Positions 9,457 through 64,000 of a DNA stretch of 64,000 nt are shown one piece after another. The translations under genes and the position numbers were made by a program. The notes beneath the pieces were generated by a model. The model did not search any database, was not told where the DNA came from, and saw nothing but the letters and a program-made list of their open reading frames with translations. Position 1 is the stretch's first letter. The number at the start of each line of letters is the position of its first letter. The stretch covers positions 186,001-250,000 of the forward strand of contig PCXA01000001.1 in the NCBI GenBank assembly GCA_002796325.1, written 5' to 3'. The DNA is from Deltaproteobacteria bacterium CG11_big_fil_rev_8_21_14_0_20_47_16. Lineage in GTDB: Bacteria; UBA10199; GCA-002796325; 1-14-0-20-47-16.

Positions 9457-9468
9457 TTGCCCATAAGG

Positions 9469-9483
9469 TGGGAAAAGGTGGGA
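9469..9483 (+). promoter_or_regulatory. MraZ boxes
   Basis: Two direct repeats TGGGA (9469-9473 and 9479-9483) separated by exactly 5 bases. MraZ is known to bind TGGGN direct repeats with 5-base spacers downstream of its own promoter. Only two clear repeats are seen, where E. coli has three. Position just after the -10 supports autorepression of the dcw operon. Confidence 0.7.
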
Positions 9484-9520
9484 TAAACCACTACAAAATT
9501 GTAAGGGGTTGAAAAATAAC

Positions 9521-9964: not shown

Positions 9965-9965
9965 T

Positions 9966-13289: not shown

Positions 13290-13308
13290 TTTTGGAGATG
13301 GGGGAGAC

Positions 13309-14778: not shown

Positions 14779-14780
14779 GT

Positions 14781-41479: not shown

Positions 41480-41716
41480 TTAATGGATGCGCACGCTGGT
41501 GCGTCGATACAATTCTAAAATGCGATATTTCACTTCTTCAACATCCTCGTATTGTCCACGTCCTATGGACCACAGTAAAAGAGATGCCATTCCTAAAATG
41601 CCAGCGCCCATTACAATTAAGATAAAGTTGCGGCTAATCGAGCCATCTTGATTGCAGATGGGGCAAGCCCATGCTGTGCGGGCAATCAAAATTGAAAGTA
41701 GCGCTACAATTCTCAT
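41480..41716 (-). CDS. Small membrane protein with CPIC motif
   Basis: A 78-residue protein: signal-like helix, CPIC at 18-21 (a possible metal or redox pair facing the periplasm), a second helix (about 31-49) and a charged cytoplasmic tail. It overlaps the end of the triheme cytochrome gene by four bases (41713-41716). I do not recognise a family; the position suggests a cbb3 assembly or accessory role. Confidence 0.65.
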   Translation of the reverse strand: MRIVALLSILIARTAWACPICNQDGSISRNFILIVMGAGILGMASLLLWSIGRGQYEDVEEVKYRILELYRRTSVRIH

Positions 41717-42855: not shown

Positions 42856-44209
42856 GGGAAGCTCCTTTTTTGCTGCATGCTGTTTTGATGAGGACGATAG
42901 TGAAAAGCACCATGCCGAGGTACATGAGAATTCCAGAGATCATGCGGAACATCCAGAATGAACCAGACTGTACGACGGACTCAGCAAAGGGTTGGCCTGA
43001 AATCCAGTCGTAACCTTGGATGAGGCCGCTGGCTGTGAGTGGAATGAAATAGAAAATATAGAAGCCGAGTGTCATGGTCCAGTAGGCCCACCATTGCATG
43101 CGGCGTGAGACCAATTCGCGGCCTGTTACTTTGGGCCAAATGTAGAGCAGGCTGCCAATGTTCCAATAAGTGAATGCACCAAAGAGCGCTAAGTGCGCAT
43201 GGGCAACCACCCAATCTGTAAAGTGAATGACTTTTTGTACAGACAAGAACGCATGGAAGGGTCCTTGAGTACATGTTGCCATATAGGCGAAGACGCCGGT
43301 GACAATAAATGTCAGTGCTGGGGATGAAGCCACTTCTCCCCAACTTCCGCGCAGTGTCATAAGCCAGTTGTAAACAACCGAGACAACAACAACGAACAAG
43401 ACGGCGGTGAGTGGAACTGCAAGAACTTGCACCCACCATGGAATGGGGCTGAAGAAGTAGTGGTGGGCACCGCCGAGTGGATAGAAAAATGCGAGTGTCC
43501 AAAAACCAATGAGTGAGATGAGGTGGCTATATACCGGTTTTTGCAAAATGATGGGTATCATGAAGTAAACGATGCCCACGCCCATGGGTGTTACAAATAG
43601 GCCCACCGCATTGTGAATCCATAGTCCCGTGATTGCAGCGCCTGCGGCGCCTGGTGCAACATAAGCAACGATAGTGTTGGCCATCACGTAATTCAAAACA
43701 GTGAATGCAAATCCCAAAATGAAATACCATGAGCTGACATACAGTTGTTTTTCTTCAGACATGAAAATGGTGCCAAGGTAGTTGATGGTGGCCATCACAA
43801 AGCCTGCAGCGAAGAGAATGTCGCCATACCAAGGAAATTCGGCATACTCGATGGCTTGCATGTCGCCGCCCAGAATGGCACCGAGACCGACAGCCATTGC
43901 TAAAACCAAAACCCACAGTGTCCACCACGCGAGTTTTTCGGAAAGTAGCGGGCGATTGCTTAGTTTTGGAATAACATAGTTAAGGATTGCAAAGAAGGAA
44001 ACGCCGAGCCACCCAAAGATAACGCCGTTCGTGTGAAATACACGCAGGCGTCCAAATTGTAGCCACGCAACGGTGCCCAAGAAGTCAGGCCACACAAATT
44101 TGGCAGCTAAAATGAGTGCAAAAAAAAGTGGTACCAATATGCCTGCCAGCGCAACGTACGTATAGGCGCGGACAAGCGGCCCACTCACGACAGCTTTGTC
44201 GGAATCCAT
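42842..44209 (-). CDS. ccoN: cbb3-type cytochrome c oxidase catalytic subunit
   Basis: A 455-residue heme-copper oxidase subunit with about 12 membrane helices. Heme b ligand His59 (FHTNG), CuB ligands His199 (WIHNAVG) and His249/250 (GGAHHYFFSPIPWWVQ), heme ligands in HFTDWVVAHAHLALFG (His329, 337, 339). Tyr243 lies exactly 44 residues after His199, as does the cross-linked Tyr of known CcoN, so it is an O2 reductase and not a NorB NO reductase. First gene of the minus-strand operon, behind a Crp/Fnr-like palindrome. Electron donor is the fused cytochrome subunit. Confidence 0.9.
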   Translation of the reverse strand: MDSDKAVVSGPLVRAYTYVALAGILVPLFFALILAAKFVWPDFLGTVAWLQFGRLRVFHTNGVIFGWLGVSFFAILNYVIPKLSNRPLLSEKLAWWTLWVLVLAMAVGLGAILGGDMQAIEYAEFPWYGDILFAAGFVMATINYLGTIFMSEEKQLYVSSWYFILGFAFTVLNYVMANTIVAYVAPGAAGAAITGLWIHNAVGLFVTPMGVGIVYFMIPIILQKPVYSHLISLIGFWTLAFFYPLGGAHHYFFSPIPWWVQVLAVPLTAVLFVVVVSVVYNWLMTLRGSWGEVASSPALTFIVTGVFAYMATCTQGPFHAFLSVQKVIHFTDWVVAHAHLALFGAFTYWNIGSLLYIWPKVTGRELVSRRMQWWAYWTMTLGFYIFYFIPLTASGLIQGYDWISGQPFAESVVQSGSFWMFRMISGILMYLGMVLFTIVLIKTACSKKGASHEAA

Positions 44210-48137: not shown

Positions 48138-48581
48138 ATGACAGTAAAAATGATGTTTGGTTTGTTTGTTCTGTGTGGGCTGTTTGTGGTGAGTGTAGCT
48201 TGTAGTAAGTCAGGTGATGGCTCTGCTCAGAGTGCGCCTGCTGTAAATGAGATGGGTGTAGGGCCGATTCAATCAAAAGTGACAATGGAACCCATCAATT
48301 CCGCTTTAGTAGCTCAGGGTAAAAGGGTGTTCGAGGAAAAGTGTAGTGCCTGTCATAAATTTGGCGAGCGTTATGTGGGGCCAGATCTAAAGGGTGTTAC
48401 CCTAAGACGTAAGCCTGAATGGATTATGAATATGATTTTGAATCCGCAAGAGATGACGCAGCAAGATGCGACAGCGAAGGAATTGTTGGCGACGTATATG
48501 ACTCAAATGACTTTTCAAAATGTCAGCCAGGATGATGCGCGTGCCATTTTGGAATATTTTAGGCAGAATGATTCACAATAA
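48138..48581 (+). CDS. Lipoprotein cytochrome c of the nos operon
   Basis: A 147-residue monoheme cytochrome with lipobox SVAC (Cys22), heme motif CSACH near residue 71 and Met ligands in the TQMTFQNVS region. Likely periplasm-facing electron donor to NosZ, like the cytochromes found in clade II nos clusters. GGAGTCC precedes the ATG by some bases. First gene of the operon, 24 bases before nosZ. Confidence 0.87.
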   Translation: MTVKMMFGLFVLCGLFVVSVACSKSGDGSAQSAPAVNEMGVGPIQSKVTMEPINSALVAQGKRVFEEKCSACHKFGERYVGPDLKGVTLRRKPEWIMNMILNPQEMTQQDATAKELLATYMTQMTFQNVSQDDARAILEYFRQNDSQ

Positions 48582-48605
48582 CTTGCCCTTAGGGCGGAGG
48601 CTTTT

Positions 48606-50540
48606 ATGAGACATACATTATTCCGGTGGTCGCTGGTGCTCTGCATTGCCAGCGCTGTTGTTGCATCTGTCGCTCTTACTCATTGTAGCAAGGGTGGGAG
48701 TAATTCCAATATTCTGGCGAGTGATGCGGCTAAACGTGTGTACGTTGCCCCCGGACAGAAGGATGAATTCTACTGGTTTATGTCGGGAGGATATTCTGGG
48801 CAGGTAGCGGTCTATGCTATTCCTTCAGGCCGCCTCATTAAACAGATTCCTGTTTTTTCGCTGTTTCCTGAAGATGGGTATGGGATCGAGGAGGAAACCA
48901 AGGACATGTTGTTGACGTCACATGGTTATATTCCGTGGGGAGATGCTCATCATCCAGAAGCCTCGATGACCAAGGGTGTACAAGATGGCCGTTGGCTTTT
49001 TATTAATGAAAACAACACACCTCGTATTGCTCGAATTGATCTGAAGTCCTTTTCTACCGCTGAGATTATTGAAATTCCAAATACTTCAGGTAACCATGCC
49101 TCGCCATTTTCAACGGAAAATTCAGAGTATCTCATGTCGGCAACTCGTTTTTCCTATCCCATTCCTCAGAAAGATGTGTCTGTGCAAGACTCGGAGAAGG
49201 GTGTTCTCAATGGCAGCATCTCTATGATCAAAGTGGATCCCACAAGTGGTCGTATGAGTATTGCATTACAGATTCTGGTGCCTGGCTATGACTATGACAT
49301 CTCACATTGTGGTAAGGGCCCGTCGCATGATTGGTGCTTTTTTTCCACCTATAATACTGAGCAAGCCCATAAGATGCTTGAGATTGAAGCATCTAAGAAT
49401 GATAAGGACTATATTCTGGCGTTTAACTGGAAGAAGGCAGAGCAGTGCTTGGCTGATGGAAAGGCAAAAGATTTTTCAGGCGTATATTACACCAATTTCC
49501 ATCCAGAGAACAAGGCCACTATCGCTGAAAAACATAGTGGCGTGAAAATGATTACAAATCCAGCTGATTGCTCCGGCATGATGTATTACCTGCCTACTCC
49601 AAAAAGTCCACATGGTGCGGATGTAGACCCATCTGGTGAGTATATCGTGGGTGGAGGAAAGCTAGCGTCCCTTATTCCTGTGCATTCATTTGAAAAGTTG
49701 CAAAAGGCCATTAATGACAAGTCTAATTATATCAAGGTTGTCGATGGAATTCCTGTCCTAAAATACGAATCCACGTTGGCAGGTGAGGTACAAAAGCCAT
49801 GCTTAGGTCCTTTACATACAGAGTTTGATGGCCTCGGCTATGCGTACACCTCCTGCTTTATTACCTCTGAGGTGGTGAAATGGAAGTTGGGAACCTGGGA
49901 GGTGGTAGATCGTATCCCTGTCTATTATAGCATTGGCCACCTAAGTATTGCGGGTGGTGATTCTGCCAAGCCAATTGCCAAATATCTTATTGCGTTGAAC
50001 AAGATTACAAAGGACCGGTATTTGCCTGTTGGCCCCGAGGTTACACAGAGTGCGCAGTTGATCGATATTAGTGGGTCTAAAATGAAGATGCTTTTGGATT
50101 TTCCAACGATTGGCGAACCTCACTATGCACAAGGAATTCCGGCATCCCTCTTGGCAGAAAATAGCCAGAAAATCTTCATTTTGGCTGAAAATGAAAATCC
50201 TTATGCAGTTAAAAATGAAAAAGATGCACGAGTGGAGCGCGATGGTAAAACGGTTCATGTTTATATGACATCAATCCGATCACACTTTAAGCCGGACGTT
50301 GTTGAGGTTAAAGTGGGTGATACCGTTTATTTTCATGTCACCAACTTAGAGCAGGATTATGATATTGATCACGGATTTGCTGTCTATGGTGCTCCAACAT
50401 CTAACATCTTGATCATGCCAGGTGAGACAAAGACAATGCGATATGAAGCAACCAAAGAAGGTATCTACCCGTTTTATTGCACCGACTTTTGTTCTGCATT
50501 GCACCAAGAGATGCAACAGTACTTGCGTGTGACAAAGTAA
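48606..50540 (+). CDS. nosZ: Nitrous oxide reductase, clade II (Sec-type)
   Basis: A 644-residue copper enzyme reducing N2O to N2. The leader MRHTLFRWSLVLCIASAVVA has no twin-arginine motif, so export is by Sec, the mark of clade II (atypical) NosZ. CuZ ligands begin at DAHH (113-116), and more His lie in GNHAS, DISHCGKGPSHD, SPHGADVD, LHTEF, GHLS and EPHYAQ. The CuA domain at the C-terminus has Cys625, Cys629, His633 and Met636 (CTDFCSALHQEM) plus a His in DIDHGFAV. All key residues are present. It works in the periplasm with the cytochrome encoded just upstream. Confidence 0.96.
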   Translation: MRHTLFRWSLVLCIASAVVASVALTHCSKGGSNSNILASDAAKRVYVAPGQKDEFYWFMSGGYSGQVAVYAIPSGRLIKQIPVFSLFPEDGYGIEEETKDMLLTSHGYIPWGDAHHPEASMTKGVQDGRWLFINENNTPRIARIDLKSFSTAEIIEIPNTSGNHASPFSTENSEYLMSATRFSYPIPQKDVSVQDSEKGVLNGSISMIKVDPTSGRMSIALQILVPGYDYDISHCGKGPSHDWCFFSTYNTEQAHKMLEIEASKNDKDYILAFNWKKAEQCLADGKAKDFSGVYYTNFHPENKATIAEKHSGVKMITNPADCSGMMYYLPTPKSPHGADVDPSGEYIVGGGKLASLIPVHSFEKLQKAINDKSNYIKVVDGIPVLKYESTLAGEVQKPCLGPLHTEFDGLGYAYTSCFITSEVVKWKLGTWEVVDRIPVYYSIGHLSIAGGDSAKPIAKYLIALNKITKDRYLPVGPEVTQSAQLIDISGSKMKMLLDFPTIGEPHYAQGIPASLLAENSQKIFILAENENPYAVKNEKDARVERDGKTVHVYMTSIRSHFKPDVVEVKVGDTVYFHVTNLEQDYDIDHGFAVYGAPTSNILIMPGETKTMRYEATKEGIYPFYCTDFCSALHQEMQQYLRVTK

Positions 50541-50564
50541 TGGGGAAACCCGTAAGGAGAACGA

Positions 50565-51161
50565 ATGTTGCGACAGTTGTCACGGCGTAACCGTTACCTG
50601 ATTCTTCTGGTAGGGTTACTGCTCCTCGGGTTGTATTTTGCACCGCTGTGGTTTGTCCAGTTAACGGCACCGCAATACCCTGAAGGTCTGGGTATGAATC
50701 TGTGGATCCATAAAATTACAGGTTTGGGACAATTTGATCTTCAGAATATTAATTTGCTCAACCACTATGTTGGGATGGATCCCATTATCGAGCAGGCGAT
50801 ACCTGAATTTGGCTATATGCCCTATGTTGTGGCGTTTATGATTCTTGGGGCGGTTGTTACATTCCTTTATCCACGTCGCTTCATGGTATATTTGGGGTTG
50901 GCGAATTTGCTTTTAGTGGGAACTGCGGGTATGTGGGATTTTTGGCGTTGGGAATATAACTACGGCCATCATCTAAACCCAGGCGCGCCAATTTCAATAC
51001 CAGGGATGGTCTATCAACCACCGCTGCTTGGATGTAAGCAATTGTTGAATATCGAATCCTGCAGTTGGCCTCACCTAGGTGGTTATCTATTGTTTCTTGT
51101 GACGGCAGTGTTGCTGTTTGTAATTGTTAGTGAACATTCGAAAGGGACGGCTAGTAAATGA
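50565..51161 (+). CDS. Membrane protein of the nos cluster (NosB-like position)
   Basis: A 198-residue protein with about four membrane helices. The periplasmic part after helix 1 (APLWFVQLTAPQYPEGLGM... INLLNHYVGM) and later GMWDFWRWEYNYGHHLNP are conserved-looking. A membrane protein directly after nosZ is usual in clade II clusters (NosB in Wolinella); I assign it by position and topology only. Overlaps nosL by four bases. Function unknown, possibly maturation or electron transfer. Confidence 0.7.
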   Translation: MLRQLSRRNRYLILLVGLLLLGLYFAPLWFVQLTAPQYPEGLGMNLWIHKITGLGQFDLQNINLLNHYVGMDPIIEQAIPEFGYMPYVVAFMILGAVVTFLYPRRFMVYLGLANLLLVGTAGMWDFWRWEYNYGHHLNPGAPISIPGMVYQPPLLGCKQLLNIESCSWPHLGGYLLFLVTAVLLFVIVSEHSKGTASK

Positions 51162-51568
51162 AACGATTGTATCTGTTGGGTTGGGCGATATTTTTGCTGC
51201 TGGCAGCGTGTCAGCAATCTGGATTTTTTGATTTTAAATCGGGTGAATTTCAATGTGATAATTGTCGCATGTCTATTGTTGATATGCGCTATAAGGCAGA
51301 AGTACGTAGTCCTAAGGGGAAGCTCTATTATTTTGATTCGATTGAGTGTATGAACGATTGGTCAAAAGAACATCCCGATCAAGTGGGAACCCAATGGGTG
51401 ACAAATTATTATGATCCTTCCCAGTGGCTTGATGCTAAAAAGGCATTGATTATGGTGGGGAACAATATTCCATCGCCTATGGGTGGACACTTGTTGGCAG
51501 TCGCAACTGAAGAGGAGTGGCGCCGTGCCCAAAAAGAATTCGGTGGTAAAAAAGTCGCCCATCCTTAA
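51158..51568 (+). CDS. nosL: Copper lipoprotein NosL
   Basis: A 136-residue outer lipoprotein (lipobox LAAC, Cys18) with CDNCRMSIVDMRYKAEV (the C-x2-C-x-M copper region), YFDSIECMNDW and a late Met pair, matching NosL, a Cu(I) chaperone for the CuZ centre. Overlaps nosD by 44 bases. Confidence 0.92.
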   Translation: MKRLYLLGWAIFLLLAACQQSGFFDFKSGEFQCDNCRMSIVDMRYKAEVRSPKGKLYYFDSIECMNDWSKEHPDQVGTQWVTNYYDPSQWLDAKKALIMVGNNIPSPMGGHLLAVATEEEWRRAQKEFGGKKVAHP

Positions 51569-52808
51569 GGGTGGCGTGTTCCTCATCACACTCTCTCTTG
51601 TGTTCCTGTCAATGCCACCATTACTTGCAGAAACGCTTCATGTGTGCTCCAGTTGTGCTAACACTACAATAAGGTCTGCAATTTTTGCAGCTCACAATCA
51701 AGATACCATAGTTGTCGCAAATGGAGTGTACCCTGAAGGCCAGCTTCTGGTTGATAAGTCCCTTATAATTTTGGGTGAAAATCGTCCTGTTGTAGATGGG
51801 CTTAATCAGGGACATGTGTTTTTGGTTAAGGCGGATCATGTGTCAATTAGTGGCTTTAAAATTCAAAATTCAGGTGTGAGTGTGGTGGAAGAGTTTGCGG
51901 GCATTCTTGCTGATGACGTTTTAGATTGCTCATTCATTGATAATGTTTTGAAAAATACGACATATGCAATTTACTTAGCTCATGTTGAAGGATGCCGATT
52001 AGATGCAAATGTGATGATGGGAAATGCAAAGGACGAGGTGAATGGCGGCAACGGCATTCACATGTGGTACTCTAAAAAGATTAGTATTCGTAATAATCAC
52101 ATTCAAAATCATCGAGATGGCATTTATCTGGAATTTAGTGATGATTGTGTTTTAGAGGGAAATAAGAGTGTACACAACTTGCGATATGGATTGCACTTTA
52201 TGTATTCCAACCGTGATCACTATATTCGTAATACTTTTGAATATAACCAAACAGGTGTTGCCGTTATGTATTCACATCATATCGTGATGGATGGAAATCA
52301 CTTTTCCCATAGTTGGGGTCGGACTTCCTATGGACTTTTGTTGAAGGAAATTGATGATAGTCAGATTGTTTCCAATATGTTTTTTGGGAATACAGTGGGT
52401 ATTTATATGGATGGGGTCAACCGTTCTCAATTCACAGAAAATAGTTTTAGAAACAATGGTTGGGGTGTAGAAATTTTGGGAAGTGCTGCAGATAACCAGT
52501 TTTCAGCTAATAACTTCATGAGCAATTATTTTGATGTGGCGACAAATTCGTTGGAAATACATAACACTTTTGACGGCAATTATTGGGATTCCTATAAAGG
52601 ATATGATTTAAACAAAGATGGCGTTGGCGATGTGCCGTTTCGTCCAATGAAAGTTTTTAGTCTTTGGATTGGTCAATACCCAGAGTTGGTGGCGTTGTTG
52701 GAATCTCCCGTGATTGATTTTTTAGAAATGGCAGAGCGTATATTTCCAGTGCTGACACCTAAGCTGCTCCAGGACAATGCGCCACGTATGAATGTGGGGT
52801 CATTGTGA
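51525..52808 (+). CDS. nosD: NosD copper-site maturation protein
   Basis: A 427-residue periplasmic protein with a signal peptide and right-handed beta-helix repeats (NosD/CASH domains; many N-x-x-x-x-N-x-x-G-I/V-x-L turns such as NNHIQNHRDGIYLEFSDD). It works with NosF and NosY in CuZ assembly. Start: GTG 51525 after GAGGAG; the longer frame from 51483 would lie deeper in nosL. An unusual CSSCANTTI follows the signal. Confidence 0.9.
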   Translation: MPKKNSVVKKSPILKGGVFLITLSLVFLSMPPLLAETLHVCSSCANTTIRSAIFAAHNQDTIVVANGVYPEGQLLVDKSLIILGENRPVVDGLNQGHVFLVKADHVSISGFKIQNSGVSVVEEFAGILADDVLDCSFIDNVLKNTTYAIYLAHVEGCRLDANVMMGNAKDEVNGGNGIHMWYSKKISIRNNHIQNHRDGIYLEFSDDCVLEGNKSVHNLRYGLHFMYSNRDHYIRNTFEYNQTGVAVMYSHHIVMDGNHFSHSWGRTSYGLLLKEIDDSQIVSNMFFGNTVGIYMDGVNRSQFTENSFRNNGWGVEILGSAADNQFSANNFMSNYFDVATNSLEIHNTFDGNYWDSYKGYDLNKDGVGDVPFRPMKVFSLWIGQYPELVALLESPVIDFLEMAERIFPVLTPKLLQDNAPRMNVGSL

Positions 52809-53518
52809 TTACAATTCATAATTTGAACAAGTCGTATGGATCCCATCATGTTCTTAATGATGTTTCATTAGAAATCCCAAAGAACTGTTTGTTTGCCCTC
52901 TTGGGGCCTAACGGGTCAGGAAAGACAACGGCCCTTAAAAGTATTTTGGGGAATGTCCTGCCACAACCAGGTAGCCAAATTATAATCGATGGCCACAATA
53001 CAATTGGCAAATATCATTACAAACATCTTATTGGCTATATGCCGCAGGCTACCCGGTATCCGCCGCATTTGCGTGTGGATGAACTCATCACACTTCTCAA
53101 GCGTTTACGTAAACAACCCACACCGCTTCTTGATCGTTTGGTTGAAGAGTTGCAAATAGCACCATTTTGGAAGAAAAAATTGGGTGCGTTGTCAGGTGGC
53201 ATGGCGCAAAAGGTAAATATATTGCAGTGTTTTATGTTTGATCCAAAAGTAGCTGTGCTTGATGAACCTACACAAAGTTTGGATCCACAGGTGTCATATA
53301 TATTAAAGCGCTTCCTTAAGGAGTATCGTACGTCGGGAAAGACGATTGTCTTTACGTCTCATGTGATGTCAGAAGTACAAGAGTTGGCGGACCTGATGGC
53401 GCTTATGGTTGATGGGCGCGTGTATACAGTGACCTCGCCACAAAAATTAATGATAGATAACAGTGTGCAGTCGCTTGAAGAAGCTCTGCACCAGTTTTGG
53501 ACCCATGAAGCGACTTAA
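52805..53518 (+). CDS. nosF: NosF ABC ATPase
   Basis: A 237-residue ABC ATPase. Walker A GPNGSGKTT, signature LSGGMAQKV, Walker B VAVLDEPTQSLDP and switch His in VFTSHV. With NosY it forms the transporter that drives NosD-dependent CuZ assembly. GTG start overlaps the nosD stop (GTGA). Overlaps nosY by 14 bases. Confidence 0.94.
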   Translation: MITIHNLNKSYGSHHVLNDVSLEIPKNCLFALLGPNGSGKTTALKSILGNVLPQPGSQIIIDGHNTIGKYHYKHLIGYMPQATRYPPHLRVDELITLLKRLRKQPTPLLDRLVEELQIAPFWKKKLGALSGGMAQKVNILQCFMFDPKVAVLDEPTQSLDPQVSYILKRFLKEYRTSGKTIVFTSHVMSEVQELADLMALMVDGRVYTVTSPQKLMIDNSVQSLEEALHQFWTHEAT

Positions 53519-54353
53519 AAACATATGGCATTCGCCACTTATTACGATTGCGGTATTTGAATTTTATGAAAATATTCGCAACAAATGGTTGTTTATATAT
53601 GGCCTTACTTTTTTGGCACTGAGTGCATTGATTGTCTACTTAGGTGTTTCAGATCCACTTCAGGCTGCGGGGTCGCTCTTAAGTTTGGTGCTTTTACTTG
53701 TGCCCCTGTTTTCTCTGGTTTTTGGGAGTATCTCGTTTTCTGAATCTCTTCGATTTGCAGAGGTTCTAATTTCCCAACCCATTTCACGTCGAGATATTTA
53801 TCTTGGTAAACTGTTGGGTCTGAGCAGTGGGCTTATGTTGAGCTTTATATTTGGTATGGGATTGGGTACTGTATTCCAAGTTGGCCTTCATGAATCTGGC
53901 ACAGCCAACTATGTGCTGCTGCTGATTCTGGGGTGTCTCCTAACCTTGACGTTTTTGAGCTTGGCATTCTTTCTGGCAACCGTTGTGCGTAAGCGAGAAC
54001 TTCTTTTTGGGTGGGTGTTGCTTGCTTGGTTTGGGTGTTTTGTTTTGTATGATTTGGTTGTTGTTGGTGTGGCCTTGTTATTTGGGAACTACCCACTCGA
54101 AATTCCAATGTTGATTTTTGTATTCTTTAACCCCATTGATTTGGCGAGAGTTGTTTTCCTTGTGCATTCAGATCTTTCTGCAATGATGGGTTATTCTGGG
54201 GCTGTATTTCAAAAATATCTGGGGCATAATGCAGGTGTTGGTCTTGGTGCTGCTGTTATGTTGCTCTGGGCCTTGCTGCATTTAAGCGTCGCGATTTGTA
54301 ACCCTTGTTTCGTTAGGCACAAGTTGATAGATCATATCCATGGCCTCATTTGA
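53505..54353 (+). CDS. nosY: NosY ABC permease
   Basis: A 282-residue ABC-2 type permease with about six membrane helices (FEFYENIRNKWLFIYGLTFLALSALIVYLG at the N-terminus; SFSESLRFAEVLISQPISRRDIYLGKLLGL elbow; FFNPIDLARVVFL later), standard for NosY. ATG 53505 is used over the longer frame beginning 53463 inside nosF. Overlaps the next regulator gene by 14 bases. Confidence 0.92.
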   Translation: MKRLKNIWHSPLITIAVFEFYENIRNKWLFIYGLTFLALSALIVYLGVSDPLQAAGSLLSLVLLLVPLFSLVFGSISFSESLRFAEVLISQPISRRDIYLGKLLGLSSGLMLSFIFGMGLGTVFQVGLHESGTANYVLLLILGCLLTLTFLSLAFFLATVVRKRELLFGWVLLAWFGCFVLYDLVVVGVALLFGNYPLEIPMLIFVFFNPIDLARVVFLVHSDLSAMMGYSGAVFQKYLGHNAGVGLGAAVMLLWALLHLSVAICNPCFVRHKLIDHIHGLI

Positions 54354-55041
54354 TTTAATTCAACAGCTTTGTCAGTGCGAACTTTTCTCAGGGCTTTCTA
54401 AAGAAGAGGTTCTGGGACTTTCTGCGCATTGTCGCATTCGTCATTTGCGTCGAAATGAAGTACTCTTTCATGCAACTGACCCTGCCAATTTTGTTTATGT
54501 TGTTCTGTTTGGTAGTGTGAAGATATTTCGCTCAAATAAAGATGGTAAAGAGCGCATTATGCACTTCCTGATGCAGGGCGAACTGTTTGGTGCAGCAGTT
54601 GCCTTAAAGGGAGGTGTGTATCCGGTTACTGCGTCAGGTCTTGAGCATACAAGCTTGATTGAGATTGCAGCACCTGTTTTTAAGTCTATGTTCATGAAAC
54701 ATCCGGTGGTTGGTCAGACGCTTGCCTCACAGATGGCAGAACGCGTGCGTGAGTCCCAAAATGATCGCATCGCAATATTTGATACGGTCGAAAAGCGTAT
54801 TGCTGTATTTTTGATAGACCTATTGGGGCAAAGTTGTAAACGCTTTGGTCCGACGACCCGTATCCCCATTCCACTCACTCGGCAAGATATTGCTGACCGT
54901 GTGGGGACAACCGTTGAGACGGTCATTCGAACATTATCGAACTGGTCTAAAGAGAACTTGATCATTGCTGAAAACAAACAGCTTGATATTCCCCATATTC
55001 AAGACTTCTGCCGTCGAATCGGGGTCGATCAGGTATCGTAA
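54340..55041 (+). CDS. Crp/Fnr-family regulator 1
   Basis: A 233-residue protein: cyclic-nucleotide-binding-like beta-barrel (about 20-125), long dimer helix and a winged HTH near 170-210 (PLTRQDIADRVGTTVETVIRTLSNW). Glu and Arg of the recognition helix (VETVIR) are kept as in Crp/Fnr, which fits a TGA-type half-site. It lacks the Fnr cysteine set, so it may sense heme-bound NO/CO or a nucleotide (Dnr-like). Overlaps nosY by 14 bases, so it belongs to the nos operon. Confidence 0.88.
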   Translation: MASFDLIQQLCQCELFSGLSKEEVLGLSAHCRIRHLRRNEVLFHATDPANFVYVVLFGSVKIFRSNKDGKERIMHFLMQGELFGAAVALKGGVYPVTASGLEHTSLIEIAAPVFKSMFMKHPVVGQTLASQMAERVRESQNDRIAIFDTVEKRIAVFLIDLLGQSCKRFGPTTRIPIPLTRQDIADRVGTTVETVIRTLSNWSKENLIIAENKQLDIPHIQDFCRRIGVDQVS

Positions 55042-55083
55042 AAATCCATTGCTGGTGTGGTATTGCGGGGGTATATCCGCCGT

Positions 55084-55779
55084 ATGAAGCAAATACCTTG
55101 CAATGTCTGCTCGTCAAGAAACACGGGTGTCTTTTGCCATCTGTCTGCGGCAGATCAGGCGCTTTGCAATAATCATAAGACATCTAATCTCTATAAATCA
55201 GGGCAGAAGTTGTTTTATGAGGGGAATCTTCCCTTAGGAATCTACTGCGTGTTCTCAGGAAAATTGAAATTGTATAAAACTGGAGTGAATGGACGTTTAC
55301 AAATTGTGCGGCTTGCAAGTGCAGGTGATCTTCTTGGCTATCGTTCGCTAATTTCAGATGAACCATACTCTGCAACAGCGGAAGTCATAGACGAAGCTAT
55401 GGTGTGTTTTATTGATAAGACAACCTTCTTTGATGTCCTTCGTCGTAATCCTCAGTTAGCCCTCGAAATGATGAAGAAGTTGTGTCGGGAATTACGTGAA
55501 GCCGAGGACCATGTAATGGATGTTGCACAAAAGTCGACACGTGAGCGTATGGCAGCCCTACTTCTTACGCTAAAAGAAGCCTATGGCAGCCCAATTTTGG
55601 GAGGCGGTTTTAGTCTGGGAATTGAGCTCTCCCGGGAAGAAATGGCTGAAATGATTGGCACCACTCAAGAGACCGTGATTCGATTGCTCTCGGAATTGCG
55701 TAGTCAGGGAGTAGTAGAAATTGTGGGTCGCTCAATCACAATTTTAAAAGAGAAAAACCTTCAGTCTTTGATCTCATAA
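55084..55779 (+). CDS. Crp/Fnr-family regulator 2 with N-terminal cysteine cluster
   Basis: A 231-residue regulator. ATG 55084 places four cysteines at 6, 9, 18 and 28 (CNVC...FCHLS...LC), which could hold an iron-sulfur cluster or zinc; spacing differs from E. coli Fnr. Sensor barrel about 35-150, HTH at about 185-215 (LSREEMAEMIGTTQETVIRLLSEL) with Glu and Arg kept. A longer GTG start at 55057 is possible. It follows regulator 1 after 42 bases and is a good candidate oxygen sensor for the local regulon. Confidence 0.85.
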   Translation: MKQIPCNVCSSRNTGVFCHLSAADQALCNNHKTSNLYKSGQKLFYEGNLPLGIYCVFSGKLKLYKTGVNGRLQIVRLASAGDLLGYRSLISDEPYSATAEVIDEAMVCFIDKTTFFDVLRRNPQLALEMMKKLCRELREAEDHVMDVAQKSTRERMAALLLTLKEAYGSPILGGGFSLGIELSREEMAEMIGTTQETVIRLLSELRSQGVVEIVGRSITILKEKNLQSLIS

Positions 55780-56670: not shown

Positions 56671-56790
56671 CCCCATACATAGCTCCCAGATTCCCGAGTC
56701 TTCACTGTTGAAGACCGACGAGATTTTTCTCGTCCCGGTGGCCTTCGTATGGGTTGCCGCCCGAAGTTCCGAAAGGAACAGAATTGGAAA
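56671..56790 (+). ncRNA. Structured 5' leader of moaA, possible Moco riboswitch
   Basis: Complementary segments: CCCATAC (56672-56678) with GTATGGG (56747-56753) enclosing hairpins GTCTTC/GAAGAC (56698-56715) and GACGAG/CTCGTC (56717-56734); then GTTCC-GAAA-GGAAC (56766-56779), a GNRA-capped stem just before the ribosome site. A multi-branched leader with a GNRA hairpin before moaA fits the known Moco RNA motif, but I cannot align it. If transcription begins near 56688, the outer stem is not in the RNA. Confidence 0.45.
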
Positions 56791-56795
56791 GGGAT

Positions 56796-57764
56796 ATGTT
56801 GATAGATTCATTTGGACGTCGCATGGAGACGTTGCGTATTTCTGTGACGGATCGTTGTAATTTTCGTTGCAGGTATTGCATGCCGTCGGAAGGGCTTCCT
56901 TGGTTACCGTCTGAGTCATATCTCTCTGCTGGTCAAATTGTACATATTGCGCAAACATTTTTGAAAATGGGTGGTAGCAAGGTGAGGCTTACCGGTGGTG
57001 AGCCACTTCTGCGTGATGACATTTTGGAAATCATTTCTCTGTTGCTACGTCTTGAGGGGATTGAAAGTCTGGGGATGACAACTAATGGGTCGTTGCTTGG
57101 TGAGTATGCACAAGATTTGTGGGACGTGGGGTTGCGACGGATTAATGTTAGTCTGGATTCGTTGAATCCGTGTCGATTCCGCTGGGTTTGTTTGTCAGAC
57201 CAGTTTTCAAAGGTCCAGATGGGTCTGGATAAGGTGTTTGCTATTGGGTTCAAGGTTAAAATCAATACGGTTGTATTGAAGGGAATTACGCATGCTGATG
57301 TGGATTCTCTCTTAGATTTGGCAGCACATCATGACCTTGAAGTGCGATTTATAGAATTTATGCCGCTGTGTGGAACAGGATGGAAGCCTGACCTGTGTTT
57401 CCCGATTGATACAGTTAAAAAGTGGGTGGAGAGCCGGTTTGACTTGATTCCCATTACACGAGGTAGTGCGCCAGCGGAGTCGTTTCATTTGTCGGGTGGG
57501 CGTGGGAGAGTGGGATTTATTGCCTCACTTTCAGCCCCCTTTTGTGAGAGCTGTACTCGTATTCGTCTAAGTGCCGATGGGAAAATCTATCCATGTCTCT
57601 TCTCAAAGGTGGGATACAATCTTGTACCATATTTGAATGATGAACAGCAGTTGCGTCTGCAGTTGTCTCATGCGGTTTTTGGTAAGCCAAAGGGGCATGA
57701 GACTATTCCTCTAGAAACATGGCGTTCAGAAGAAATGCCCTACATCAGAAGTATTGGAGGCTAA
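56796..57764 (+). CDS. moaA: GTP 3',8-cyclase MoaA
   Basis: A 322-residue radical SAM enzyme for the first step of molybdenum cofactor synthesis. First cluster Cys21-x3-Cys25-x2-Cys28 (CNFRCRYC), TGGEPLLR, MTTNG and RINVSLDSL; second cluster FCESCTRIRLSADGKIYPC; ends with the catalytic Gly-Gly. ATG 56796 follows AAAGGG; the longer frame from 56754 would cover the GNRA hairpin. First gene of the moa operon. Confidence 0.94.
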   Translation: MLIDSFGRRMETLRISVTDRCNFRCRYCMPSEGLPWLPSESYLSAGQIVHIAQTFLKMGGSKVRLTGGEPLLRDDILEIISLLLRLEGIESLGMTTNGSLLGEYAQDLWDVGLRRINVSLDSLNPCRFRWVCLSDQFSKVQMGLDKVFAIGFKVKINTVVLKGITHADVDSLLDLAAHHDLEVRFIEFMPLCGTGWKPDLCFPIDTVKKWVESRFDLIPITRGSAPAESFHLSGGRGRVGFIASLSAPFCESCTRIRLSADGKIYPCLFSKVGYNLVPYLNDEQQLRLQLSHAVFGKPKGHETIPLETWRSEEMPYIRSIGG

Positions 57765-57765
57765 A

Positions 57766-58671
57766 GTGAAATCAATATCAGATAAGATTGAAACCTTGAG
57801 ACGAGCTACAGCTGTTGCTTCAATATCAGGGCGCCCAGAAGTGATCAGGGCGCTGATGGTGGGTGATACCCCAAAGGGAAATGCAATTGATGTGGCTAAA
57901 GTGGCTGGAATTGCAGCTGCAAAAAAAACGTGGGACTTAATTCCATACTGTCATCCACTGATGTTGGATCAGGTGCAAGTTTCGTTTGAAGCGCACGATA
58001 CACAGATCGATGTTGTCGCAACTGCAACTGCTACTGGAAAAACTGGTGTGGAGATGGAAGCGCTGACAGCAGTGAGTGTGGCTGCGTTGACGTTATATGA
58101 TATGGCCAAGGCTATGGATGAATCTATGGTTATCGGAGGTATACGTTTGCAGGAAAAACGTGGTGGAAAATCTGATTATAATGATCGTGCACCAAATAAT
58201 TTTAGAGCAGCAGTGATTGTTACGTCGGATGGTACTGCAGCGGGTGTGAGACAGGATAAATCCGGGCAACTGATTCAGAAGCACCTAGAGAAATATGGGA
58301 TCCATAATATACGTTATACCATTCTTCCGGATGATACAGATTCAATAGTGCACGAAATGAAGGGCTGCGTTTCAGAGGGGGTGCAACTTGTCTTGAGTAC
58401 AGGGGGGACTGGGCTGAGTTGTCGTGATGTCACTGTCGAAGCCGCGAGGCAAGTGATTGAAAGGGAGGTGCCGGGTATTGCGGAAACAATGCGTTCCTAT
58501 GGGCAGCGGCGGACGCCCTATGCAATGCTATCTCGTGGTATTGCAGGTGTTGCCGATAAAACTGTGATCGTTACATTGCCGGGTTCCTCTCGTGGTGTGT
58601 CAGAGTCCTTAGATGCAATTTTCCCATACATATTACATGCCTACCCAATGATGGATGGGGGAGGTCACTAA
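57766..58671 (+). CDS. moaCB: MoaC-MoaB fusion (cyclic pyranopterin monophosphate synthase / molybdopterin adenylyltransferase-like)
   Basis: A 301-residue bifunctional protein. Residues about 1-140 are MoaC (KGNAIDVAKVAGIAAAKKTWDLIPYCHPL and the EMEALTAVSVAALTLYDMAKA segment), which turns the MoaA product into cPMP. Residues about 148-301 are MoaB/MogA-like (AAVIVTSDGTAAG, STGGTGLSCRDVT, LPGSSRGVSE), which adenylates molybdopterin. GTG 57766 has GGAGG 5 bases upstream, at the moaA stop. Fusion of these two is known but not common. Confidence 0.92.
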   Translation: MKSISDKIETLRRATAVASISGRPEVIRALMVGDTPKGNAIDVAKVAGIAAAKKTWDLIPYCHPLMLDQVQVSFEAHDTQIDVVATATATGKTGVEMEALTAVSVAALTLYDMAKAMDESMVIGGIRLQEKRGGKSDYNDRAPNNFRAAVIVTSDGTAAGVRQDKSGQLIQKHLEKYGIHNIRYTILPDDTDSIVHEMKGCVSEGVQLVLSTGGTGLSCRDVTVEAARQVIEREVPGIAETMRSYGQRRTPYAMLSRGIAGVADKTVIVTLPGSSRGVSESLDAIFPYILHAYPMMDGGGH

Positions 58672-58672
58672 T

Positions 58673-59422
58673 ATGAGTTGGATGCTAGTCCCACTTTTTA
58701 TGGTGACTGCGTGCATGTATGCCATGGTTGGATTTGGTGGTGGAAGTACCTATATCGCAATTTTGGCGGCTTGGGGAGTTCCATACATTCAAATTCCTCA
58801 AATCTCGCTCATTTGTAATGTTCTAGTGGTTGCGGGTGGATGTATTCATCTCTTTAGTTTGGGTTATGGTGATATCCGCCGCTTGCTACCCTTTCTTCTT
58901 ACATCTATTCCAATGGCATATTTAGGTGGTCGTATTTTCATTTCTAAAGAACTGTTTATGCTGGTGTTGGGTAGCGTTTTGCTAACAGCAGGATTTCGAT
59001 TACTAGTATCGCAGACATGTAAGGTGCGTCGCTATGTTTCTGCTCGCAATATATGGATGTGGGGTTTACCGTTGGGTGCCTTGCTTGGATTGATTTCTGG
59101 TATGGTTGGCATTGGTGGAGGGATATTTTTGTCCCCACTGTTATATTTTTTGCGATGGGATGATGCCAAGGGAATTTCTGCAGCTGCGTCGCTTTTTATA
59201 TTAACTAATTCCATCTCTGGTCTTGCAGGGCAGATTATGAAGTCGGGAGTGACTGTATCGTTTGGCGATTTGTTGCCACTAATGATGGCGGTTGTTGTTG
59301 GTGGACAATTGGGCAGTTTTTTTGCTGCACGAAAGTTTACAGCTATGTGTGTTCAGCGGTGTACAGGAATCCTAATTGTGATTGTAGCTGCTAGAATATT
59401 ATTAAAGACGGTGTCCATATGA
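58673..59422 (+). CDS. TSUP (TauE/SafE) family membrane transporter
   Basis: A 249-residue protein with about eight membrane helices in two similar halves: MVGFGGGSTYIAIL near the start and the repeat GMVGIGGGIFLSPLLYF mid-protein, the TauE/SafE signature. Members move sulfite, sulfonates or other anions. Its place between moaCB and moeA suggests an anion linked to the molybdoenzyme, but the substrate is unknown. ATG 58673 follows GGGGGAGG. Overlaps moeA by four bases. Confidence 0.85.
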   Translation: MSWMLVPLFMVTACMYAMVGFGGGSTYIAILAAWGVPYIQIPQISLICNVLVVAGGCIHLFSLGYGDIRRLLPFLLTSIPMAYLGGRIFISKELFMLVLGSVLLTAGFRLLVSQTCKVRRYVSARNIWMWGLPLGALLGLISGMVGIGGGIFLSPLLYFLRWDDAKGISAAASLFILTNSISGLAGQIMKSGVTVSFGDLLPLMMAVVVGGQLGSFFAARKFTAMCVQRCTGILIVIVAARILLKTVSI

Positions 59423-60645
59423 AAACAATGATTTCAATGTTAGAAGCTCAGGATATTATCTTGGCGCATACAGCAGTTGGAGAAGTAAACGTATTACCAC
59501 TTCAATCCACTTTAGGTGCAGTTCTGGCGGCACCTGTACGTGCGCACGTAGACGTCCCGTCATTTGACAATTCTGCAATGGATGGATTTGCGTTGGATCA
59601 TCATGTGACACAGGAAGCGAGTAACGATAATCCTGTAGTACTCCCAATTGTTGGTTATCAGCCTGCCGGTGTTGTACATTTTGGGTCGCTTAAGCCAGGA
59701 TGCGCCTTGCGTGTTTCTACTGGAGCGATGGTGCCATTAGATGCAACTGCAGTCGTACCGATAGAGGATGTGGAAGAGTTGGGTAAAGATTTAATCTTAA
59801 GGAAACCTGTAAAAGATGCTGCTCACATTCGACGTCGAGGTGAAGAAACAAGAAGTGGCGAACTAGTATTGGATGCAGGAGTGTCGGTCAGTGCAGCTGT
59901 TGGGGGTTACCTTGCCAGTATTGGTGTTACTGAATTACCTGTTTATCGCCGGCCACGAATTGGCATTGTTGCAACAGGAACGGAGCTAATGCCGCTTGGA
60001 GCTCGGTTGGGGCCAGGTCAAATATATGATAGTAATAGCATCGCTCTTTCAGCTGCTATGCATGTTGATGGTGTTTCTGCCCGAGTTTACCCTCCAGTAG
60101 ATGATGATTTTGAACTTCAAAAAAAGGCGTTTTCAAAAATGATTTCTGAAAATGATGTGGTTGTAGCAACAGGCGGTGTTTCTGTTGGTAACCATGACTA
60201 TGTCAAAGAAATTATGATGCAATTAGAAATAGAACCGCTTTTTTGGAAGGTTCGCCAAAAGCCTGGCAAACCATTGTATGTGGGTTGCCGTCCTGGGCTC
60301 ATGTTTTTTGGATTACCCGGCAATCCTGCATCTAGTTTAATTAATTATTACGAATACGTGCGCCCCGCTTTGCGCAAAATGATGGGACACATTCAATGCC
60401 GTTTACCAAGTATTAATGCGGTTTGTAAGACGGATGTTTGGGTAGAGAGTGAAAGAACTCAGTTTTTTCGATCACGATTAGATTGTCTAAATGGTGAGTG
60501 GCAAGTGGCTCCGTTGGATATGCAGGGGTCGCACTGTATGAAGTCGTTTGCTCAATGTAATTCGCTTTTGGTTATCCCAGAGGCAATTTCGATTATTCGC
60601 GCAGGCAGTCTTGCGCAGGTGCATGTTTTACCACACGGATGGTAG
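59419..60645 (+). CDS. moeA: Molybdopterin molybdenumtransferase MoeA
   Basis: A 408-residue enzyme inserting molybdate into adenylated molybdopterin. FDNSAMDGFAL, RVSTGAMVP, IRRRGEE, RIGIVATGTELMPLG, YDSNSIAL, GGVSVGNHDYVKE and FGLPGNPASSLINY are family blocks; the C-terminal domain IV is present. Part of the moa operon; overlaps moaD slightly if the longer moaD frame is used. Confidence 0.94.
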   Translation: MKTMISMLEAQDIILAHTAVGEVNVLPLQSTLGAVLAAPVRAHVDVPSFDNSAMDGFALDHHVTQEASNDNPVVLPIVGYQPAGVVHFGSLKPGCALRVSTGAMVPLDATAVVPIEDVEELGKDLILRKPVKDAAHIRRRGEETRSGELVLDAGVSVSAAVGGYLASIGVTELPVYRRPRIGIVATGTELMPLGARLGPGQIYDSNSIALSAAMHVDGVSARVYPPVDDDFELQKKAFSKMISENDVVVATGGVSVGNHDYVKEIMMQLEIEPLFWKVRQKPGKPLYVGCRPGLMFFGLPGNPASSLINYYEYVRPALRKMMGHIQCRLPSINAVCKTDVWVESERTQFFRSRLDCLNGEWQVAPLDMQGSHCMKSFAQCNSLLVIPEAISIIRAGSLAQVHVLPHGW

Positions 60646-60904: not shown

Positions 60905-61321
60905 ATGGAAGTGGAATTAACAGACTCTATAATTGATTTACAGCGGTCTTATGGCAGACTTGATGATCCGGCGTGTGGGGCTGCAGTTTTATTTGTTGGT
61001 CGGGTACGCGATCATAATGATGGGAGAGCTGTTTCATATATTCGATATACAGCACATAAAAGTATGGTGCTAGCTGAGGGTGAGCGAATATTAAGGGAAG
61101 CAGCGCAGAAATTTGGACTCCGTAAATCGCTTATTGTTCATTACGTTGGTGACCTTGGAGTCGGTGGTATTAGTGTTGTTGTTGGTGCTGCGACACCTCA
61201 CCGCGGTGTATCCTTTGCAGCAACGTCTTGGATAATGGAAGAGGTTAAGAGGCGTTTGCCAGTTTGGAAGGAAGAGTACTATGTTGAAGGAGGCCATGCG
61301 TGGCCACAAAACATGCCCTGA
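60905..61321 (+). CDS. moaE: Molybdopterin synthase large subunit MoaE
   Basis: A 138-residue subunit that, with MoaD, converts cPMP to molybdopterin. GAAVLFVGRVRDHNDGRAVSYIRYTAHKSM, HYVGDLGVGGISVVVGAATPHRG and RLPVWKEEYYVEG (catalytic Lys) match the family. Overlaps mobA by 22 bases. Confidence 0.93.
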   Translation: MEVELTDSIIDLQRSYGRLDDPACGAAVLFVGRVRDHNDGRAVSYIRYTAHKSMVLAEGERILREAAQKFGLRKSLIVHYVGDLGVGGISVVVGAATPHRGVSFAATSWIMEEVKRRLPVWKEEYYVEGGHAWPQNMP

Positions 61322-61884
61322 TATTGGCAGGTGGGCGCAGCCGTCGTTTCGGCAGCGATAAAACCGCCTTATCGGTTAATGGTAAGACGCTTTTGTCCCA
61401 ACTTGTTGAGAACCTTAATAATGATGGATGTGATATTAGTGTTTTAGGGCCCAAGCATGCACATCTATTGGCCCTCGGTTGTCGTGTAATTCCGGATAAA
61501 TCATTATATGATGGCGCGCTTGTTGCGATCGCTGACGCGATGGAGCTTATTAAATGTGATGCGGCATTCGTAGTGGCTGCAGACATGCCATTTCCAAATT
61601 TGAATGTCATTCAGCTAATGTGGAGTCAACTTAATGGTTATCGGGCCGTTTTTCTAGAAAACGCCACATTGCCTGCAATTTATTCGGCCTCTGCGATACC
61701 TGTAATGCGTTCCTTGTTGGAATCCTCTGAAAGGCGTCTTGGTCAGCTCAATGCTGCCACTGAGCCCTATAGCCATTATATACCCAAGTCACTGTGGTCA
61801 TCGCTTGATCCTCAGGAGTGGACGACTCGGAATATCAATTTTCCTGAAGATTGGGAATGCTGTCGGAATATTTTGTCCATATGA
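61300..61884 (+). CDS. mobA: Molybdenum cofactor guanylyltransferase MobA
   Basis: A 194-residue nucleotidyltransferase adding GMP to Moco, giving the bis-MGD form used by DMSO-reductase family enzymes. ALILAGGRSRRFGSDK is the GTP site, VVAADMPF the metal site, NINFPEDWE the family end. GTG 61300 is within moaE. Its presence just before a NarG/NxrA-like gene fits bis-MGD supply. Confidence 0.92.
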   Translation: MATKHALILAGGRSRRFGSDKTALSVNGKTLLSQLVENLNNDGCDISVLGPKHAHLLALGCRVIPDKSLYDGALVAIADAMELIKCDAAFVVAADMPFPNLNVIQLMWSQLNGYRAVFLENATLPAIYSASAIPVMRSLLESSERRLGQLNAATEPYSHYIPKSLWSSLDPQEWTTRNINFPEDWECCRNILSI

Positions 61885-61959: not shown

Positions 61960-64000
61960 ATGGTTGATTCGTTAACAAGACGCGGGTTCTTACAGCTGGC
62001 TGCGGCATCTGGTTCGCTGTTCCTGCTTGAGCATTGCACTAAGGTGCCCAACATCTTTACCTTTCTGACGCCATTTGATCATGACAACCCTCTCTCTGGG
62101 TATCCCAATCGTGATTGGGAAAAGCTTTATCGTGATCTATTCAAATACGATTCAAAGTTTCATTTTTTATGTGCCCCCAACGACACACACAACTGTTTAC
62201 TGACCACCTACGTTAAAAACGGAGTAGCAGTTCGGATTGGTCCATCGTTTGGTTATGGTAAAGCAACTGACATTTATGGCAACCAAACGTCACATCGTTG
62301 GGACCCACGGTGTTGTGAGAAAGGATTAGCTCTTGTTCGTCGATTTTATGGAGATCGTCGCTGTAAGGAGCCGATGGTGCGTCAGGGATTTTTGGATTGG
62401 GTGGAGAGTGGTTTTGAGCGTGATTTGAAGACTGGTGCGGTTCCTAAAAAATATCTCAACCGCGGAAAAGATCCGTTTGTCAAGATCAGCTGGGATAGGG
62501 CTTTTGAGTTATCTGCCAAGGCCATGAATAACATAGCCAGTACGTATACTGGGGAAAAAGGAAAACAATACCTTCTTGCACAGAACTATGATCCCGCCAT
62601 GGTTGATGAAATGGATGGTGTTGGGACTCAGGTTCTTAAATTCCGTGGTGGGATGGCAGCGCTAGGGGCCACTCGTCTATTTGCTCAGTATCGATTGGCC
62701 AATATGATGGCACTTATGGATTCGAAGATCCGAGGAGTTGGACCAGACAAGGCGGTTGGTGGGCGTGGTTGGGATAACTATAGCTGGCATACAGATTTGC
62801 CTCCCGGTCATCCAATGGTCACAGGTCAACAAACAAGTGATTTTGATTTGGTATGTGCTGAGTATTCAAACCTGATTGTTGTTTGGGGAATGAATTGGAT
62901 TGCTACAAAAATGCCTGATGCACACTGGTTGACGGAAGCGCGCATGCGTGGCGCGAAAATAATTGTGATTGCGGCTGAGTATAGCGCTACTTCTTGCAAG
63001 GCTGATATGGCGCTTGTTGTTCGTCCTGGGACAACACCAGCACTTGCGTTAGGGTTTTGCCACGAAATTATTAAAAACAAACAATATGATCCTGAGTACA
63101 TCAAAACACGAACGGATTTGCCGTGTTTAGTTCGTATGGATACTCTAGAGTTGCTAAAGTCTGAAGATGTGTGGCCAGATCATAAAACAGCCAAGTTAGA
63201 TAATTATATTCAAGTTTTGCGTAAGGGTGAAAAAGCCCCCGTCCCAACTCTGCAGAAGTCGCCTGTTGTTAAAGAGGAGATGCGTGAAAGCTGGGGTGAC
63301 GCTGTCATTTGGGATATTAAAACGGGAAAACCTGTTTCCCTTAATCGTGATGAATATGGTGAACGGTTTCATGCGAAGAATGTAGATGCATCACTTTCTG
63401 GAACCTATTCAGTAACGCTTAAAGATGGAACCAAGGTTGAGGTAAGGCCGGTTTTTGATCTGATTCAAACGTACATCTTTGAAAATTATTCGCCAGAGGA
63501 TGTGTCAGATATTACTTGGGCCCCCGTAGAGGGTATTCGCTCTGTAGTGCGTGAGATTGTTGCTAATAAACGTAAGACGCTTTTTGCAATGGGTATGGGA
63601 CCTAATCAATTCTTTAATAGCGATTTGAAAGATAGGGCCACCTTTTTATTAGCGGCGTTGACAGAAAATGTAGGTGAAAAAGGTGGAAACATTGGAAGCT
63701 TTGCTGGGAATTATCGTGCTGCCTTCTTTAGTGGTCTTGGTCAATATTCAATGGAAGATCCCTTTAACATTACATTGAACAAAAAGGGACCTGTCAAAGT
63801 TAAGCCTTATCTTAAACAAGAGTCGGTACACTATTTTAATCATGGAGATACTGTTCTTAGAAAAGGAAAGGCGTTGCTGACAGGAAAGTCACATATGCCA
63901 ACACCAAGCAAGTCTATCTTGGTTTCTAATAGCAACTCGCTCATTGGTAACGCCAAGGGACATTATGATACGGTGATGAACACCTTGCCTCGCGTAGAGT
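61960..64000 (+). CDS. NarG/NxrA-like molybdoenzyme catalytic subunit (partial)
   Basis: At least 680 residues, open at the window end. The N-terminus TRRGFLQLAAASG is a twin-arginine signal, so the enzyme is periplasmic. LYRDLFKYDSKFHF, GYGKATDIYGNQTSHRWDPRCCEKGLALVRRFYGDRR and WGMNWIATKMPDAHWLTEARMRGAKI match the nitrite oxidoreductase / periplasmic nitrate reductase clade of the DMSO reductase family (type II). Asp279 (WHTDLPPG) aligns with the Mo-ligand Asp of NarG. The first cluster site reads C71-x3-D75-x3-C79 with C118 or C119, so an Asp replaces a Cys. GGAGGG precedes the ATG. Direction (nitrate reduction or nitrite oxidation) is not set by sequence. Confidence 0.88.
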   Translation, partial: MVDSLTRRGFLQLAAASGSLFLLEHCTKVPNIFTFLTPFDHDNPLSGYPNRDWEKLYRDLFKYDSKFHFLCAPNDTHNCLLTTYVKNGVAVRIGPSFGYGKATDIYGNQTSHRWDPRCCEKGLALVRRFYGDRRCKEPMVRQGFLDWVESGFERDLKTGAVPKKYLNRGKDPFVKISWDRAFELSAKAMNNIASTYTGEKGKQYLLAQNYDPAMVDEMDGVGTQVLKFRGGMAALGATRLFAQYRLANMMALMDSKIRGVGPDKAVGGRGWDNYSWHTDLPPGHPMVTGQQTSDFDLVCAEYSNLIVVWGMNWIATKMPDAHWLTEARMRGAKIIVIAAEYSATSCKADMALVVRPGTTPALALGFCHEIIKNKQYDPEYIKTRTDLPCLVRMDTLELLKSEDVWPDHKTAKLDNYIQVLRKGEKAPVPTLQKSPVVKEEMRESWGDAVIWDIKTGKPVSLNRDEYGERFHAKNVDASLSGTYSVTLKDGTKVEVRPVFDLIQTYIFENYSPEDVSDITWAPVEGIRSVVREIVANKRKTLFAMGMGPNQFFNSDLKDRATFLLAALTENVGEKGGNIGSFAGNYRAAFFSGLGQYSMEDPFNITLNKKGPVKVKPYLKQESVHYFNHGDTVLRKGKALLTGKSHMPTPSKSILVSNSNSLIGNAKGHYDTVMNTLPRVE

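Follow-up and report, generated by a model that had tools for sequence, protein, structure and literature searches.

A periplasmic NarG/NxrA-type enzyme encoded in one gene row with nrfHA is probably a nitrate reductase of nitrate ammonification

The analyzed window, a 64,000-nucleotide stretch equal to C1:186001-250000 of a 1.95 Mb genome (20 contigs, 99.75% complete), ends inside a narG/nxrA-like gene for the alpha subunit of a molybdenum enzyme (Table 1). The reading frame stays open to the window edge and is cut by that edge only; in the assembly the gene is whole and free of frameshifts (C1:247960-251439, 1159 aa plus stop, ending at window-equivalent position 65439), and it is the single copy in the genome. 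Upstream on the same strand are molybdenum cofactor genes, regulators and a nos cluster, and the nosZ neighborhood pointed out in an earlier note on this DNA is a clade II cluster. Elsewhere in the window (41713-44209, minus strand), a CcoN-like subunit I (218 bits against a cut-off of 583) accompanies a fusion of FixO plus cytochromes, which suggests either a divergent oxidase of the cbb3 type or an NO reductase of an unusual kind.

Table 1. Features of the locus and related genes. Positions are those of the window unless a contig (C1) or another locus (L) and genome (G) is named.
Feature	Position	Strand	Basis or remark
Clade II (Sec-type) nos cluster: cytochrome c, nosZ (48606-50540), membrane protein, nosL-like, nosD, nosF, nosY	48138..54353	+	
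CRP/FNR-family regulator	54340..55041	+	family search
FNR-like regulator, N-terminal cysteines	55057..55779	+	homologue beside nxr/moa in relatives
moaA (molybdenum cofactor)	56754..57764	+	sequence; homologue adjoins nxrABCD in relatives
moaC-moaB fusion (molybdenum cofactor)	57754..58671	+	sequence; relatives' gene order
TauE/SafE-type membrane protein, conserved in nxr/moa module	58655..59422	+	no NCBIfam match
moeA (molybdenum insertion)	59419..60645	+	sequence; relatives' gene order
moaE (molybdopterin synthase large subunit)	60905..61321	+	sequence; relatives' gene order
mobA (MGD synthesis)	61300..61884	+	sequence; kept beside nxrABCD in relatives
narG/nxrA-like alpha subunit, molybdopterin catalytic subunit	61960..64000	+	5' 680 codons inside window
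Tat motif region LTRRGFLQL of signal peptide	61972..61998	+	sequence; aligns with LTRRAFLQV of Kuenenia NxrA
FS0 motif C71-APN-D75-THN-C79, Asp-ligated [4Fe-4S] cluster, with substrate-facing N74	62170..62196	+	alignment; ligand roles PMC8387239
C119, fourth FS0 ligand	62314..62316	+	alignment
D279, predicted Mo ligand (Kuenenia D275), then L-P-P	62794..62796	+	alignment
nrfA	C1:254662-256017 (L002:7663-9018)	+	haem-1 motif CIHCH
Nitrite-oxidizer-type NxrA	L041 (G028) 8680-12132		
Nitrite-oxidizer-type NxrA	L042 (G026) 8834-12379		
Nitrite-oxidizer-type NxrA	L043 (G029) 12326-15766		

The best PDB match of alpha was NxrA of Kuenenia stuttgartiensis (7b04_B, 873 bits, E = 1.8e-261, residues 5-1155), a similarity far beyond chance. 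Identity is 38% to Kuenenia NxrA, 64% to a protein of Parabeggiatoa 4572_84 and 71-74% to relatives in the same phylum. The features that the earlier note had read from the first 680 codons are all present, namely a Tat signal (TRRGFLQ at the N terminus), the block KATDIYGNQTSHRWDPR, C71/D75/C79 at FS0 and Asp279 as Mo ligand. Alignment with Kuenenia NxrA (PDB 7b04) pairs C71/D75/C79, N74 and D279 with C67/D71/C75, N70 and D275, and adds C119 (Kuenenia C115) as the fourth FS0 ligand; the Kuenenia ligand assignments are from PMC8387239. The Asp at the D279 position is invariant in all aligned rows. By these ligands, alpha is the Mo-bisMGD subunit, with a predicted Asp ligand, of a type II DMSO reductase family enzyme in the NarG/NxrA superclade, and its three Cys and one Asp at FS0 assign it to the periplasmic part of that superclade, made up of NXR and a sister NAR clade. 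The enzyme class proposed earlier, a periplasmic type II enzyme of the DMSO reductase family akin to NxrA and pNarG, agrees with this assignment.

Reading beyond the window, a step the earlier note had suggested, revealed six co-directional genes in the order narG-narH-gamma-chaperone-nrfH-nrfA, with gaps of 3, 11, -4, 35 and 9 bp. In one row with alpha these genes encode a NarH/NxrB-like beta subunit, a gamma subunit with haem b (EB_dh family) and a TorD-type chaperone, as expected of the superclade. Alpha, beta and gamma each had their best PDB match in the corresponding subunit of 7b04 (NXR-A/B/C), and M127 and K280 of gamma align with Met155 and Lys305, the haem ligands of Kuenenia NXR-C. 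NrfH scored 158 bits against a curated cut-off of 134, and NrfA matched Pfam Cytochrom_C552 (E = 1.5e-137) and aligned to Wolinella NrfA through its catalytic regions. Unlike CXXCK-type NrfA, this protein has five CXXCH motifs, with CIHCH at haem 1; NrfA of the all-CXXCH kind occurs in Campylobacter and Anaeromyxobacter, and enzymes of this kind can carry out DNRA (PMC12285233). The locus contains the gene set expected for DNRA, a nitrate reductase plus pentahaem NrfA with NrfH.

We infer that these genes are co-transcribed. Promoter and terminator scans stayed at background level, with terminator-like sites, one of them inside the chaperone gene, no commoner than in shuffled sequences. Five one-mismatch matches to the FNR box were found in the window against 4.8 expected, none of them in the region upstream of the alpha gene, and an Rfam search gave no match. 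Past nrfA, feoB follows after 323 bp, and then a monohaem cytochrome c gene; in several relatives its homologue immediately precedes nxrA. That same position is taken in 19 clade members, among which Acidobacteria or Planctomycetes are frequent, by a gene for a large cytochrome of 550-850 aa that has 7-9 CXXCH/K motifs (loci L084-L163, for example L123:5897-7909 and L143:6244-7974), which is perhaps the electron partner of the clade enzyme.

Phylogenetic analysis (35 rows, LG+C20) included Kuenenia, four Nitrospirota and two same-phylum genomes as NXR rows; sequences from Nitrotoga, Hydrogenobacter, Thermogutta and Methanoperedens, as well as SerA and ClrA, were not among its rows. A Natronococcus homologue was kept as a partial row only; on Natronococcus occultus plasmid 2 (L034:8962-12512) this narG/nxrA-like gene is divided over two frames and has no annotation in the record. 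Alpha fell in a clade (support 100/97) that is sister to the NXR clade of Nitrospira, Nitrospina and anammox bacteria (100/99). Within it the sequences of the host phylum group together (100/97), and Thioploca, Thiomargarita and Parabeggiatoa, all Thiotrichaceae, are also members. Forcing the host phylum together with NXR was rejected by the AU test (p = 0.0001), and the tree and this test rule out membership of alpha in the NXR clade. PMC8387239 cites a Beggiatoa nitrate reductase that comes from isolate 4572_84; the protein of this isolate (locus L094) is the 64% identical sequence above and has FS0 and Mo-ligand motifs identical to those of alpha. The kinship to NxrA and NAR suggested by the earlier note was upheld, but its description of KATDIYGNQTSHRWDPR as an NxrA-clade block was too narrow, as both the block and the FS0 Asp are common to the two sister clades.

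As published, the sister clade includes a nitrate reductase characterized from Hydrogenobacter as well as the NXR of Nitrotoga (PMC6050957). NXR enzymes can work in both directions (PMC6050957, PMC8387239), and the authors of PMC10839748 and PMC10732223 consider direction unreadable from the tree. With the clade mixed in this way, sequence alone does not fix direction; neither the clade nor its residues prove it, and this counts against any firm assignment. The pattern Cys/Asp/Cys at FS0 occurs in 101 of 101 covering rows of the clade and also in the NXR rows, with His/Cys/Cys in NarG rows, so that the FS0 Asp marks the superclade and not the direction. Directly after the Mo ligand, all 102 clade rows and all eight NarG rows have Leu, and the 29 NXR rows have Gln. 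At the 25 positions that separate the two clades (fixed differently, at least 97% on each side), NarG agrees four times with each, and the clade therefore has no overall leaning to NarG. Leu versus Gln beside the Mo ligand is a lead on direction, short of proof.

A metagenome-assembled genome named Nitrospira japonica (G046, locus L146, DYJL01000008.1) yielded only the sister-clade NarG/NxrA. No canonical Nitrospira NxrA was found in its family, although the Nitrospirota phylum of another genome (G048) did yield one. Because only the sister-clade form is present and genomes grouped with G046 mostly lack either form, the name looks doubtful.

The earlier note had also named perchlorate, selenate and hydrocarbon-oxidizing type II enzymes as the competing placement. 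The gamma subunit is of the haem-b EB_dh type found in those enzymes too. Against 873 bits for NXR, however, perchlorate reductase and ethylbenzene dehydrogenase structures gave alpha only 195 and 122 bits, the score with the EbdA model was 144, where its cut-off is 2000, and PcrA, the one enzyme of this group in the tree, stood outside the clade of alpha (SerA and ClrA were not among the rows). Alpha keeps Asn74, a proposed substrate contact where EbdA has Ile (PMC8387239), and its FS0 has Asp, not the His pattern. Scores and tree rule out identity with perchlorate reductase or ethylbenzene dehydrogenase, and an oxyanion reductase for (per)chlorate or selenate, or a type II hydrocarbon dehydrogenase, is hardly credible here.

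E. coli-type NarGHI shares the Mo-Asp ligand, the D-L-P-P motif and a NarH-like beta subunit with the present enzyme, but has His/Cys at FS0, a membrane NarI and cytoplasmic orientation, and E. coli NarG scored 106 bits (1q16). Kuenenia NXR-ABC has the same subunits, equivalent Mo and FS0 ligands and the same Met/Lys haem ligation in gamma, but differs in its clade and in D-Q-A after the Mo ligand where alpha has D-L-P. Closest are the periplasmic nitrate reductases of the sister clade, which share Tat export, the NarH-like beta and EB_dh gamma subunits and the TorD-type chaperone. The enzyme is a further member of a known clade, and what is unusual is its direct junction to nrfHA.

We surveyed this junction in 80 named loci, 49 of which have at least 5 kb downstream of nxrA. 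No nrfHA was found downstream of nxrA in these 49 loci or in 45 other genomes of the phylum. NrfA occurs in three of 46 phylum genomes, and together with an nxrA-like gene only in this one. A strong NrfA match (E below 1e-40) anywhere in the genome was seen in 20 of 50 genomes that carry the clade, a rate whose background was not measured. Among relatives the modules occur separately: nos without the others (G023), nos and nrfHA ~13 kb apart (G036), nrfHA alone (G039), and moa-moe-nxrABCD (G002, G037). All three are colinear only in this genome among those compared, and because they are separate elsewhere the nar-nrfHA junction is probably recent. In G002 the same nxrABCD is found, but with nirK ~7 kb upstream of nxrA, and of the six phylum relatives that carry this enzyme, four had no detected NrfA or NirK.

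This separate occurrence of the modules is what would be expected if nar and NrfHA were adjacent through shuffling alone and used separately, one for redox balance and the other for nitrite detoxification, and the promoter signal is not above background either way. However, only 35 bp separate the chaperone and nrfH genes on the same strand, and terminator-like sites are not enriched, and we regard such separate use as very unlikely.

Genome-wide searches found no NirS and no NirK, the cupredoxin domain of NosZ being the only region that scored for NirK, and NrfA with NrfH is therefore the only nitrite sink found. Gene order indicates an Alternative Complex III and a putative aa3-type oxidase (the reading of cytochromes left out ~23 kb at three contig ends). 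The sole RuBisCO-type match, a 393 aa protein with GLDIAKDDE at the active-site block encoded beside a polyprenyl synthetase (L245:1486-2667, G000:C9), scored 198 bits with the type III model, whose cut-off is 497; it is far under carboxylase cut-offs and was treated as a RuBisCO-like protein, not a true RuBisCO. A search for ATP-citrate lyase gave no match in the genome and none in the controls, and so had no positive control. In these tests no clear candidate gene for CO2 fixation appeared.

These data bear on the direction of the reaction, which the earlier note had raised as nitrate reduction against nitrite oxidation. A bidirectional NXR that serves aerobic nitrite oxidation, as in Nitrotoga, would pass electrons from the gamma haem to a cytochrome c and on to the aa3-type oxidase. 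With Alternative Complex III and this oxidase present, electrons from nitrite could in principle reach O2; moreover, the sister clade includes a nitrite oxidizer (PMC6050957) and the periplasmic orientation favors energy yield from nitrite oxidation (PMC3578206). This physiology is nevertheless unlikely, since nrfHA in the same directon consumes nitrite, alpha lies outside the NXR clade, the only RuBisCO-type match looks RuBisCO-like and ATP-citrate lyase gave no match, albeit in a search lacking a positive control. The place in the sister clade and the nrfH and nrfA genes behind the chaperone gene favor nitrate reduction.

We conclude that alpha very probably catalyzes the first step in the respiration of nitrate to ammonium, as the catalytic subunit of a nitrate reductase that is soluble and reaches the periplasm by Tat export. 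Nitrate reduction that feeds ammonification is favored because nrfHA is in the directon, NirK and NirS are absent and no clear CO2-fixation gene was found, and with an enzyme that converts nitrite to ammonium in the same gene row the bacterium most likely reduces nitrate and does not make it. In the proposed pathway, electrons from quinol would reach the haem b of gamma (M127/K280) by way of Alternative Complex III and a small cytochrome of the c type (or NrfH). The Fe-S clusters of beta and then FS0, with its Asp ligand, would carry them on to the Mo-bisMGD bound by D279, the site at which nitrate would be reduced to nitrite. NrfHA, encoded directly downstream and acting in the same compartment, would reduce the nitrite to ammonium. 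On the gene content, the simplest account of the host is a facultative respirer that would turn nitrate into ammonium in its periplasm and is also able to reduce N2O. Beggiatoaceae respire nitrate, both by denitrification and by DNRA (PMC6052272, PMC4914600); because their genomes also hold other nitrate reductases, the role of the clade enzyme is not isolated there.

Genome surveys often label members of the superclade nxrA and count their hosts as possible nitrite oxidizers; at the present locus, the genes just past the window point instead to nitrate ammonification, and Leu versus Gln beside the Mo ligand offers a simple marker for testing. A bolder reading, which we put forward tentatively and consider rather doubtful, is that one transcription unit couples an NXR-type periplasmic enzyme to NrfHA as a committed nitrate reductase for ammonification. 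Genetic coupling to a nitrite sink would then have locked a reversible NXR/NAR scaffold into reduction, while other families of the phylum would keep the nitrite-oxidizer form, so that one phylum would hold both directions of the ancestral enzyme.

NxrA of the nitrite-oxidizer/anammox type was found in three other genomes of the phylum, from two families (Table 1). These proteins are 61-62% identical to Kuenenia NxrA; the contigs that encode them measure 1.36 Mb, 0.80 Mb and 44 kb and carry nxrB, nxrC, chaperone and Moco genes nearby. The three organisms are possible undescribed nitrite oxidizers, and since they carry nitrite-oxidizer-type NXR the phylum may suit a comparison of both forms.
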